DNA of 64,000 nucleotides from Bacilli bacterium (GTDB lineage: Bacteria > Bacillota_I > Bacilli_A > RF39 > UBA660), in the NCBI GenBank assembly GCA_017626405.1, contig JAGAIS010000006.1, positions 133,100 through 197,099 of the forward strand, given 5' to 3'. Each line of letters starts with the position of its first letter. Position 1 is the first letter of the stretch. Of this stretch, positions 50,657 to 54,329 are shown in pieces. The notes beneath the pieces are model-generated. The model was not told where the DNA came from. It saw only the letters and a list, made by a program, of their open reading frames with translations, and searched no databases. The translations under genes and the position numbers were made by a program.

Positions 50657-50688
50657 TAAAAAACGAATAGTTTAAAATGCTATTCGTT
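50657..50688 (-). terminator. Terminator of the LOG-glyS unit
   Basis: AACGAATAG/CTATTCGTT stem with a 9-base loop over the glyS stop, followed by T-run. Confidence 0.82.
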
Positions 50689-52060
50689 CTAACACATAAT
50701 CTTTAACATCTTCTAGTTTAATAGTAATTTGTTCCATCGTATCGCGATCTCTCAATGTTACTGTTCCATTATTTAAAGTATCATCATCGATTGTAATGCA
50801 ATAAGGAGTTCCAATAGCATCCTGTCTTCTATAACGTTTACCAATATTTGCTGTTTCATCATATGATGTCATAAAATACTTTGATAGTTCTTGATAAACT
50901 TCTATTGCTTTTTCCGAATGATTCTTCTTAATAAGTGGTAAAACAGCAACTTTATAAGGAGCTAGGAATGGCTTAAGTTTTAGCACTTCTCTCTCTTCAC
51001 CATTATCTAAAGTATCCTTAACATAACTCTCAGTTAATATTGCTAAGAATAGTCTATCAACACCAACTGAAGGTTCAACGACATAAGGGGTATATTTTTC
51101 ATTAGTTTCAGGATCTAAATATCTTAAATCACATTTTGCATGGTCCATATGAACTGATAAATCATAGTCAGTTCTATCGGCAATACCCCATAGTTCTCCC
51201 CATCCCATTGGGAATAGATACTCTATATCAGTAGTAGCTTTACTATAGAATGATAATTCTTCTTTTGCATGATCTCTATATCTTAAGTTTTCGCTAGATA
51301 AACCTAAATCATTCAAGAAATCTAAACAGTATTTTTTCCAAAATGCAAACCATTCCAAATCCGTATTTGGCTTACAGAAGAATTCTAGTTCCATTTGTTC
51401 AAATTCACGAGTTCTAAATATAAAATTTCCTGGTGTAATTTCATTTCTAAAACTCTTTCCTATTTGACCAATACCGAATGGTACTTTTGCTCTCATACTT
51501 CTTTGAACATTTAAAAAGTTTACAAAAATACCTTGAGCAGTTTCTCCACGCAAATATACTTTATTTTTAGAATCTTCAGTAACTCCTTGATGCGTTTCAA
51601 ATAATAAATTAAATTTTCTTATTGGTGTAAAATCACAAGAGCCACATTTTGGACATGTAATATTATTATCTCTAATATATTCCTCTAGTTTTTCATTAGA
51701 CCATCCGTCTCCAGTTTCTTCACCCTTAGTGAATTCTTCAATTAATTTATCTGCTCTTTCTCTACTCTTACATTTTTTACAATCGATAAGTGGATCTGCA
51801 AAAGAAGCAACATGTCCTGATGCTACCCATACTTCAGGATTCATAATAATAGCTGAATCTAATCCAAAGTTCTTATAATTCTTATCGGCATTTTCTTGAA
51901 TGAACTTTTTCCACCAACAATTTTTTATATTATTCTTAAGTTCTCTACCTAGTGAACCATAATCCCATGAATTAGCAAGTCCATTATATATTTCACTTCC
52001 TTGAAATATAAATCCATATTGTTTGCAATAATTAACTAAAGTTTCCATACTTTTTTCCAT
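50672..52060 (-). CDS. glyS: Glycyl-tRNA synthetase (dimeric, class II)
   Basis: Charges tRNA-Gly with glycine. The 462-residue enzyme is the single-chain alpha2 type. It has class II motif 1 region (SWDYGSLGRELKNNI), motif 2 (GKSFRNEITPGNFIFRTREF), motif 3 (EPSVGVDRLFLAIL), a zinc-binding insertion (CKKC ... CPKCGSC), and an anticodon-binding C-terminal domain. The ATG at 52060 has a GGAGAG site. It is preceded by a LOG-family gene (2-base gap) and a T-box-like leader. Confidence 0.97.
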   Translation of the reverse strand: MEKSMETLVNYCKQYGFIFQGSEIYNGLANSWDYGSLGRELKNNIKNCWWKKFIQENADKNYKNFGLDSAIIMNPEVWVASGHVASFADPLIDCKKCKSRERADKLIEEFTKGEETGDGWSNEKLEEYIRDNNITCPKCGSCDFTPIRKFNLLFETHQGVTEDSKNKVYLRGETAQGIFVNFLNVQRSMRAKVPFGIGQIGKSFRNEITPGNFIFRTREFEQMELEFFCKPNTDLEWFAFWKKYCLDFLNDLGLSSENLRYRDHAKEELSFYSKATTDIEYLFPMGWGELWGIADRTDYDLSVHMDHAKCDLRYLDPETNEKYTPYVVEPSVGVDRLFLAILTESYVKDTLDNGEEREVLKLKPFLAPYKVAVLPLIKKNHSEKAIEVYQELSKYFMTSYDETANIGKRYRRQDAIGTPYCITIDDDTLNNGTVTLRDRDTMEQITIKLEDVKDYVLERIAF

Positions 52061-52062
52061 TT

Positions 52063-52599
52063 TTATCTCTCCATTCTTTCTAAAAAATCATTTAATGTAT
52101 TTATATCATTTACAATACTTATAAGCTTAATATCATCCTCACTCATAAATCCCTCATCATGAGCTTTAATAATAAACTTTAAAATATCACTATAATAATT
52201 ATTATAATTAAATAATATTACTCTCTTATAAATTTTTTTCGTTCTCATCTCATCAATAAACGAAAAAAGTTCAGAAAGTGTCCCGAGTCCGCCCGGAAGG
52301 ACAATTATTAAATCACTCAATTTAAAAATTTCCTTAGTTCTCTCAAAAGTATTTTTAGTAACAATACTATCTACATACTCTGATTCATCAATACCATTAG
52401 CATCATTGACATCACTGACACCAATAATCGGTTTATCTTCATATTTAAAAGTCATAATTGATTTAAAAATCATACCCGAATCAAAAGTTTTACTAACTAA
52501 GGTAAATCCTAAAGAGGATAACTTCGTTGCTACAATTGATGCCAATTCTTTATATTGCATCTTTGTCTCCTCTTTAGAACAAGCTAAATACACTTGCAC
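52063..52599 (-). CDS. LOG-family nucleotide phosphoribohydrolase-like protein
   Basis: A ~178-residue Rossmann-type protein with the LOG signature LPGGLGTLSELFSFIDEM (PGGxGTxxE), found in cytokinin-activating enzymes and in bacterial 5'-monophosphate phosphoribohydrolases. The GTG at 52599 is chosen because AGGAAGTGAT upstream matches the anti-SD; another GTG at 52608 lies inside that site. The longer reading extends into the T-box-like leader and is rejected. It lies 2 bases before glyS and is part of the same leader-controlled unit; no link to glycine is known. Confidence 0.85.
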   Translation of the reverse strand: MQVYLACSKEETKMQYKELASIVATKLSSLGFTLVSKTFDSGMIFKSIMTFKYEDKPIIGVSDVNDANGIDESEYVDSIVTKNTFERTKEIFKLSDLIIVLPGGLGTLSELFSFIDEMRTKKIYKRVILFNYNNYYSDILKFIIKAHDEGFMSEDDIKLISIVNDINTLNDFLERMER

Positions 52600-52617: not shown

Positions 52618-52728
52618 AATAAAAAAAGACCAAATTGTATGGGCGATTTTTTCACTCGCTGTTCCACCATACTTTGGTCTCATTATTCTATATAGCTCCG
52701 AGGTTTCCAAGCCTCATCTTCACTTCAT
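52618..52728 (-). promoter_or_regulatory. Compact T-box riboswitch-like leader, probably glycine-specific
   Basis: The transcribed leader of LOG-glyS contains, on the minus strand, TATGG-TGGAACA-GCGA ... TCGC-CCATA. Two helices flank a 7-base bulge TGGAACA, matching the T-box bulge (UGGNACC), except A for the last C. UGGA fits a tRNA with discriminator U (UCCA), as in bacterial tRNA-Gly. A terminator arm AGACCAAA/TTTGGTCT encloses the whole element and is followed by a T-run (52626-52618). Between the predicted start (about 52728) and this module there are only about 50 bases, so Stem I must be very short. Confidence 0.75.
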
Positions 52729-52734
52729 GTAAAA

Positions 52735-52763
52735 ATTATATCTTACTTTTCGGATTTAGTCAA
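52735..52763 (-). promoter_or_regulatory. Promoter of the T-box-like leader/LOG/glyS
   Basis: Minus strand TTGACT (52763-52758), 17-base spacer, TATAAT (52740-52735). It overlaps the 3' end of the upstream gene. Confidence 0.78.
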
Positions 52764-54329
52764 TTGAGAAATAATAGTACGATGTTTATTAATTATTTCA
52801 CTTACACTTTCTGGTTCAACTAAAGATATGATATTATCTTGCCATTCCAAGAAAGTTTTCTTATCAAATTGAGAATTAATACAAATAGATACTTCTTTAA
52901 ATATATACTCATATAAATAAGGTTCTATTCTTCCACATTCTCTCTCTTTATTAAGACAAACTAATGCTTCATTCAATAGTATCAAATCATCCTCATCTAA
53001 ATTTTTGAGTGTAGCTAAATCGACAATCATAGTACCAACTGCTGAAATATCGCATTCATTTCCGGATAGAAAAGAATAAAAAATATTGCCAAAATAGTAT
53101 TCTCCTAATCTAAATAAGTGAAAATTTTCTCCTAAATCATCTTGTTCTATTTGGCTCAAACTCGCAATCGTATATAGATAAAGTAACATGCGACTATTTT
53201 CATCATTGATATCGATATTGCCATCAAAATTAGATAATAGTTTCTCAAACTTTTTATAATATTCCCAACTCGTAATATCGACACCATATAGGGTATCATA
53301 GTATGTATCATAAGTTATAGATCCATTAGATATTGTAAGTTTAATTATATTATCAAATAAATTATAACTATACTTAGTATTTCCATTTGCAAAATCACAA
53401 TAACTAGTATTAACATCTAGTCCTATCAAGAAATCTCCACCAAAATTATAGTTAAATGCCAATATTGAATTAGTATAATTATCTAACTTGCCATAATTAT
53501 ATTCATCATAAGTATATGCATACTTTAGAAAATTTATAATCCTATTTGCTTTTTCTTCAACAATTCCATACTTGCGACACAAATACTCATTATAGTATAA
53601 ATCTCCTTTAGCAATAATACCATTTAGAAGACTATTATCAGTTCTTATATTTATCGCATCAAACAATCTTGATTCTGAAGAAGGTTCAATATCATAATAG
53701 TGCTCATAATATTCTAAGGATGTCATAAGAACAGAAACATCCGATTTATCGCTTATGACTTCTGCTAGCCCAATAATAAAACCTTCGGAATTTTCAAATG
53801 ATAAATCTTGAAAATTCTTATTCTTTATATTATCAAATATTCTATTCATCGTTACTATATTAAAAGAGCACCCCATATCATCTAATTCATGAAAAAAATT
53901 CATAAGATACTTTTTAAAGTCACTGCTAATAGTACGATTTTCATCAATTACTCTACTTATATAATCAATTGCTAACTCATCTCTGTCGTCTTCACAAGTA
54001 ACAACATATTTTACATTATATTGAATAGTTGGTTCTTTTAATTTAGATGCTGATATAGTACCAAGCATAATAAATAAGAAGATATATAAATTTGTAAGTA
54101 TATTCTTTTTTAAACTTTCTTTATATTCTTTCGCTTCTCTAATCTTTTCTACTCTATATAATTCCTTAGATACTGACATAGCAACCGTATCTTCTACTCT
54201 AGAATTATAGAAGAATTCTAAGTCTTTATCATTCTCTTCTATTAAAGATATCATCTTAAGTTCATCATCATAATACATATCATACCATGTACTATTTTCA
54301 TATTTTTTTCCTATATATTTTTTTGGCAT
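52743..54329 (-). CDS. Large single-pass membrane protein, unknown
   Basis: A 528-residue protein. A basic/charged cytoplasmic start (~75 residues) leads to one membrane helix (ILTNLYIFLFIMLGTIS), and the remaining ~430 residues are helical, rich in Asp, Asn, Tyr and Glu, with no recognised domain. Its last codons contain the promoter of the T-box-like leader. It lies downstream of priA, 65 bases away. Confidence 0.6.
   Translation of the reverse strand: MPKKYIGKKYENSTWYDMYYDDELKMISLIEENDKDLEFFYNSRVEDTVAMSVSKELYRVEKIREAKEYKESLKKNILTNLYIFLFIMLGTISASKLKEPTIQYNVKYVVTCEDDRDELAIDYISRVIDENRTISSDFKKYLMNFFHELDDMGCSFNIVTMNRIFDNIKNKNFQDLSFENSEGFIIGLAEVISDKSDVSVLMTSLEYYEHYYDIEPSSESRLFDAINIRTDNSLLNGIIAKGDLYYNEYLCRKYGIVEEKANRIINFLKYAYTYDEYNYGKLDNYTNSILAFNYNFGGDFLIGLDVNTSYCDFANGNTKYSYNLFDNIIKLTISNGSITYDTYYDTLYGVDITSWEYYKKFEKLLSNFDGNIDINDENSRMLLYLYTIASLSQIEQDDLGENFHLFRLGEYYFGNIFYSFLSGNECDISAVGTMIVDLATLKNLDEDDLILLNEALVCLNKERECGRIEPYLYEYIFKEVSICINSQFDKKTFLEWQDNIISLVEPESVSEIINKHRTIISQLTKSEK

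Follow-up and report, generated by a model that had tools for sequence, protein, structure and literature searches.

T-box leaders have been sorted into four classes: class I has a long Stem I and Stem II; class II, the glycine class, has a long Stem I and no Stem II; class III has a short Stem I whose apical loop of 5-6 nucleotides (nt) holds the specifier, and requires Stem II; and class IV is intermediate, classes III and IV being mostly translational (PMC10482949). Binding of tRNA is augmented by the interdigitated double T-loop motif (IDTM), by the S-turn or by both (PMC10482949), and strong GGC-GCC pairing has been argued to be the reason why glycine T-boxes manage without Stem II (PMC7583486). 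In the TBDB database, the models described are limited to its classes I and II (PMC7778990). In this study, we describe a leader of ~105 nt on the minus strand of a 64,000-nt stretch of contig JAGAIS010000006.1 (hereafter the window, in which all positions are counted), from an uncultured gut-type Bacilli genome. The leader (about 52728-52621) precedes a LOG-family gene and glyS, both also on the minus strand. It is real and conserved, and comparison with its homologues indicates a new T-box architecture with a putative function; it is probably a transcription attenuator of a compact T-box type that senses tRNA-Gly. An earlier note on this DNA had suspected a minimal or altered T-box class, a suggestion supported by the compact architecture conserved in 81 leaders.

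The leader resembles class II glycine T-boxes such as B. subtilis glyQS in its Gly specifier, lack of Stem II, putative transcription attenuation, UGGA bulge and single-stranded linker. Unlike glyQS, it has a Stem I of three base pairs, a kink-turn and a hairpin whose apical loop carries the specifier. A short Stem I without IDTM, a kink-turn and an apical-loop specifier are shared with the class III ileS T-boxes of Actinobacteria (N. farcinica, M. tuberculosis); however, these are translational and need Stem II, whereas the leader has no Stem II, is putatively controlled by a terminator and is specific for glycine. The combination is thus of a short Stem I known from translational ileS, the absence of Stem II known from glyQS, and transcriptional control. 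Here there is neither the long, IDTM-bearing Stem I nor the internal-loop specifier of classes I and II, the putative transcript starting ~4 nt before its first helix (P1). Compact glyS leaders have neither IDTM nor Stem II and appear to be controlled by the terminator, and, judged by the openly licensed literature, where an earlier mention elsewhere is possible, they are outside the published classes I-IV. With the Rfam T-box model RF00230 the leader shares the T-box bulge with its helices A1 and A2, the kink-turn and the specifier codon, but it has no long Stem I, and in the window's leader Stem III and the G-U wobble are missing as well.

Architecture of the compact leader

The features named in the earlier note are all present on the minus strand, with the bulge TGGAACA at 52666-52660 between the helices GTATGG/CCATAC and GCGA/TCGC. 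The features of the leader are, from 5' to 3':

52735..52763 (-): promoter of sigma-70 type, TTGACT (52763-52758), 17 nt, TATAAT (52740-52735)
52728 (-): putative transcription start, +/- 2 nt, placed from the -10 position
52722..52724 (-): 5' strand AGU of P1, the kink-turn C-stem, pairing with GCU at 52696-52694
52717..52721 (-): 5' part of the kink-turn, GAA (L1-L3) and GA, the 5' GA being present in 79/81 homologues
52700..52715 (-): specifier hairpin P2, GAGG, loop CUUGGAAA, CCUC (in DNA GAGG-CTTGGAAA-CCTC)
52706..52708 (-): putative specifier GGA, a Gly codon, in the apical loop
52697..52698 (-): 3' GA of the kink-turn, present in 63/81 homologues
52694..52696 (-): 3' strand GCU of P1, supported by covariation
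52690..52693 (-): AUAU directly 3' of P1, conserved in 63/81 homologues
52673..52680 (-): terminator 5' arm AGACCAAA, the end of a purine-rich linker at the Stem III position of relatives, pairing with 52634-52627
52667..52672 (-): 5' strand GUAUGG of helix A1, pairing with CCAUAC at 52642-52637, 4/6 pairs changed on both sides
52660..52666 (-): T-box bulge UGGAACA, with UGGA (52666-52663) complementary to the UCCA end of tRNA-Gly
52643..52659 (-): helix A2, GCGA/UCGC, and its loop, with a G-C pair where known T-boxes have G-U
52637..52642 (-): 3' strand CCAUAC of A1, supported by covariation, followed by AA
52627..52634 (-): terminator 3' arm UUUGGUCU (in DNA TTTGGTCT), from the fold and the covariation of the arms
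52621..52627 (-): U-tract of the intrinsic terminator, 7 T in DNA, from sequence

The predicted fold of the leader RNA beats all 200 dinucleotide shuffles (z = -3.3). No Stem II lies between P1 and A1 of the window's leader, and a GAGG resembling a Shine-Dalgarno sequence is found outside the hairpin. A pairing partner for the conserved AUAU 3' of P1 was looked for and none was found. The kink-turn at the base of Stem I is recognized by sequence, from its two GA and a covarying C-stem. In four leaders (L235, L237, L225 and L068) CA replaces GA on its 3' side, so that the kink-turn is not standard everywhere.

Homologues, specifier and promoter position

A search for GlyS covered 98 genomes from the window's family as well as named genomes (uncultured Bacilli, 'Tenericutes' or Erysipelotrichaceae metagenome-assembled genomes, several from rumen or gut), and a leader of the same design was present upstream of glyS or LOG-glyS in most loci read. 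The 81 homologous leaders, all but a few of which precede glyS or LOG-glyS, have in common a 3-bp helix and kink-turn with a small hairpin, then the T-box bulge, then a terminator. Comparison demonstrates, at the level of sequence, the anatomy of the leader, its conservation and covariation, the position of its promoter, and the complementarity of codon and bulge. The alignment of the 81 was made to a covariance model (R1) and leans towards its structure, but the MAFFT alignment of 30 leaders from which R1 was built agrees with it and already has strong covariation. In the larger alignment 97.3% of the structure cells are paired, and the covariation score over five helices is 0.465, whereas shuffles reach 0.204 and slid partners no more than 0.111. 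The helices that flank the bulge, for which covariation had been called for, are paired in 99.0% (A1) and 100% (A2) of cases, and those of the mini-Stem I in 97.9% (P1) and 89.9% (P2). The outer pair of P1 is A-U in 45 leaders, U-A in 27, G-C in 3 and C-G in 1, and all four pairs of P2 have changed on both sides. With compensatory changes preserving it across 81 leaders, the structure is not due to chance.

Over 395 genomes of the class, R1 matches at or above ~59 bits were nearly confined to the window's family (~40 of the 54 genomes sampled). The few at 59-62 bits outside the family include one ordinary trpS and one ordinary glyS T-box, thus the compact glyS form appears to be family-specific in the sampled genomes. 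Outside matches of 50-62 bits were set aside, being, where read, mostly discriminators of ordinary T-boxes (trpS, glyS).

The earlier note suggested that the specifier might sit in a tiny hairpin, GAGGCTTGGAAACCTC, and the homologues bear this out. The apical loop reads GGA in 65 leaders, GGC in 14 and GGU in 1, so that 80 of the 81 loops have a Gly codon, matching the glyS downstream; the single exception, L066, has an insertion in the loop. Drift at the third position only, among Gly codons, is what a specifier predicts. All 81 leaders have the bulge between A1 and A2, in the form UGGAACC, UGGAACA or UGGG, and as a UGGN bulge complementary to the tRNA end it is that of a T-box. The proposed fit of UGGA to tRNA-Gly also holds, since both tRNA-Gly(GCC) of the window's genome (loop UUGCCAA) and tRNA-Gly(UCC) of relatives, one from the same genus (loop CUUCCAA), end in UCCA. 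The leader with GGU (L193, genome G058) has the bulge UGGG, found as well in L130 and L230; opposite U73 of tRNA-Gly, UGGG would form a G-U pair.

The promoter TTGACT-17-TATAAT matches at 11/12 positions and is the top promoter of the region. As it lies directly upstream, transcription probably starts near 52728. The earlier note's remark that it leaves little space for Stem I holds among the relatives too: of the 80 leaders for which the upstream sequence sufficed, 56 have a -10 hexamer whose end lies 9-15 nt from P1 (16.6 expected from shuffling the same stretches), the distance being exactly 11 nt in 30 of the 80. With a typical spacing of 11 nt between the -10 hexamer and the first helix, there is no room for a long Stem I, which contradicts a start far upstream.

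RF00230 scored the leader at 16.9 bits against a gathering threshold of 93 when the check proposed in the earlier note was run, and with gathering thresholds Rfam recognized tRNAs only and no T-box in the window. The Stem I part of the RF00230 alignment was rejected as spurious because it was placed upstream, across the promoter. In 20 loci with 18 compact glyS leaders, 0/18 reach the gathering score, and the two Rfam T-box matches there are separate full-size T-boxes further downstream. The window's genome holds seven other RF00230 matches, mostly full-size and several 5' of aminoacyl-tRNA synthetases.

The leader sits between the end of an open reading frame and the two genes that it would control. 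That reading frame (52743-54329, minus strand, 528 aa) lies between priA and the leader and has no Pfam match. The downstream genes are:

52063..52599 (-): LOG-family gene, first of the controlled unit (PF03641, 2.2e-21), putative start GTG
50672..52060 (-): glyS, glycyl-tRNA synthetase (GlyRS), 462 aa (PF03129 and PF00587)

Nested terminator and the sub-variant without Stem III

The terminator arms covary. The mean duplex energy of own arms is -9.2 kcal/mol, compared with -6.5 kcal/mol for swapped arms, in the 16 leaders of the window's type described below, and -11.9 compared with -7.4 kcal/mol in 26 other leaders; none of 5000 permutations reached the observed mean. A terminator scan with a loop limit of 8 nt gave no match in the window's leader, which the limit accounts for. 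As had been noted from the window, the arms enclose the antiterminator-like element: the predicted terminator encloses A1 in 16/16 window-type and 22/26 other leaders, and the textbook competition of a terminator with the antiterminator helix A1 is absent in the window. This nesting had been taken as a sign of new logic. However, seven full-size glyS T-boxes of Clostridia (for example L094, Clostridium hydrogeniformans) are nested too; they differ from the leader in having a long Stem I and a Stem III, which is the competing hairpin there, and other Clostridia glyS T-boxes have a textbook downstream hairpin. With this control, the nested terminator was rejected as a unique feature, and the argument from nesting was too strong, since nesting is a variation that some ordinary T-boxes have as well. 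A different switching layout is seen in L002 and L004 (contig C4 of the window's own genome, G000), full-size T-boxes in which the terminator 3' arm seems to pair with the T-box bulge (AGGAUGGUACC with GGUAUCAUCCU).

The more unusual points of the window's sub-variant are its missing Stem III and missing G-U wobble, rather than nesting. A Stem III flanked by RRRxG and AA is present in 65 of the 81 leaders and absent in 16, the window's included, which come from at least seven genera, the window's own among them; window-type features occur in five genomes of that genus. These leaders were collected by a DNA pattern search of 386 family genomes and reading of its matches, together with L130, L074 and earlier loci, and as the search favoured this sub-variant, its counts are not frequencies. 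UGGNACA replaces UGGNACC in 15 of the 16, and G-C replaces G-U at the A2 base in all of them. Among the 81 leaders, the A2-base pair is G-U in 50 and G-C in 30; G-U always goes together with ACC and Stem III (50), ACA always with G-C (21), and a lost Stem III always with G-C (16). Since the sequences are related, this coupling is a pattern and no independent test.

In most relatives the terminator 5' arm overlaps Stem III, thus Stem III and the terminator are mutually exclusive there. In window-type leaders the 5' arm (consensus AGANCAAA) is predicted to be mostly unpaired in the nascent RNA, and a search for a hairpin that would compete for it came up empty in most of the 16. Their linkers, as read from the sequences, are ~19-24 nt long, and RRxG-like purines are kept just 5' of the terminator 5' arm in most of them.

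Putative tRNA sensing and related leaders

From these features we infer that the leader binds tRNA-Gly and switches. The apical-loop UGGAA would pair with U33-U34-C35-C36-A37 of the tRNA-Gly anticodon loop, and the 3' end of uncharged tRNA would pair with UGGA and stack on A1. The purine-rich strand between the mini-Stem I and A1 might then dock on the tRNA complex or stretch along it and be kept from the terminator 3' arm, so that RNA polymerase would read into LOG-glyS; charged tRNA would fail to dock, the linker strand would pair with the 3' arm, and transcription would end. In most relatives, where the linker holds Stem III, the switch would be between Stem III and the terminator. In the window's sub-variant, which has no Stem III, one single strand would play both parts. 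For this role of the linker strand we see about an even chance. The kink-turn, UGGN pairing and a short Stem I that carries its specifier in the apical loop are all established T-box elements (PMC10482949, PMC7583486).

Several points weigh against tRNA sensing of this kind. It has been reported that T-boxes with a short Stem I hardly bind tRNA without Stem II (PMC7583486), which the leader lacks, and that Stem III is indispensable and the G-U wobble the primary sensor, a steric one, of 3'-aminoacyl tRNA (PMC7583486), both of which are missing in the window. In addition, the tRNA-Gly(UCC) that a GGA specifier calls for turned up only in relatives and not in the window's own assembly, which is 88.7% complete. 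Finally, the nested terminator keeps A1 intact in both states, so that it is by inference that tRNA blocks termination. We put forward tentatively, at somewhat less than even probability, a T-box class that would dispense with the IDTM of Stem I, Stem II, Stem III and the G-U wobble in sensing whether the tRNA is charged, and in which one purine-rich strand would be both the purine string of the discriminator and the terminator 5' arm, and the tRNA itself, rather than an alternative RNA helix, would block termination.

Within the T-box interpretation, the window type might alternatively work as a geometric ruler, in which a tRNA held by both loop and bulge would stretch the linker of ~21 nt and bar its 8 terminator bases from the 3' arm. 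The linker lengths of window-type leaders, the mostly unpaired 5' arm and the lack of a rival RNA hairpin agree with it. By rough, uncomputed estimate, ~21 nt minus the 8 in the terminator leaves ~13 nt, near or below the span from anticodon to acceptor end plus A1. On the other hand, the kink-turn may shorten that distance and direct docking of the purine string accounts for the same data, thus the ruler seems rather unlikely. The leader has no long Stem I, Stem III or G-U wobble and members of the family have small genomes; it might instead be a decaying T-box remnant before an ordinary terminator, with tRNA regulation lost. This is improbable given that window-type leaders in at least seven genera keep kink-turn, Gly codon, bulge, covarying helices and terminator arms, and that the seventh base of the bulge and the A2 base pair change together. 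The conserved kink-turn and AUAU might also suggest binding of a protein, either GlyRS itself or one that recognizes kink-turns, the likeness to T-boxes being secondary; but protein binding would need neither a Gly codon drifting at its third position nor a UGGN bulge matching the tRNA, and tyrosine leaders of the same design carry UAC with UGGU, so we consider this even less probable than decay. A canonical T-box whose long Stem I begins further upstream, with the mini-hairpin as a fragment of it, would fit the resemblance of the discriminator to RF00230 and the full-size T-boxes of the same genome, but it is scarcely credible given the near-perfect promoter directly upstream at a conserved position, an upstream sequence that is the end of a reading frame, and the failure of all 18 compact glyS leaders to reach the Rfam gathering score.

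These leaders bear on current models, in which tRNA binding is strengthened by the tip of Stem I, which contacts the elbow, or by the S-turn of Stem II, and Stem III and the G-U wobble judge charging. About 80 conserved leaders are without Stem I tip and Stem II S-turn, and 16 without all four parts. As compact leaders of ~105 nt they are natural minimal constructs for asking which tRNA-sensing parts are essential. Because the Rfam gathering threshold misses them and the four-class scheme has no place for them, tRNA-controlled genes in this Bacilli family are probably under-annotated now.

A pattern search for tyrS leaders in 193 genomes gave 17 matches, of which 16 (L257-L271 and L273), from the same family as the window, are compact and the last (L272) is a full-size T-box. 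One of the 16 comes from the window's genome (L006/L257, contig C5 of G000, 476224-476398), outside the window. Like the compact glyS leaders, they have a kink-turn mini-Stem I with an apical-loop specifier and, in most, a promoter directly upstream; unlike the window's leader, they have a UAC specifier, a UGGU bulge and Stem III. They also carry an F-box-like sequence fitting a IIA/B pseudoknot, and no long Stem I. Since they share the mini-Stem I design, a short Stem I in transcriptional T-boxes is suggested to be a trait of the lineage and not peculiar to glycine. In another family of the class, a leader 5' of a hisS-like gene (L209, contig C8 of G210) has a short Stem I with a small apical loop, CUGACAA, in which GAC is a possible specifier; compact T-boxes are perhaps also found outside the window's family.
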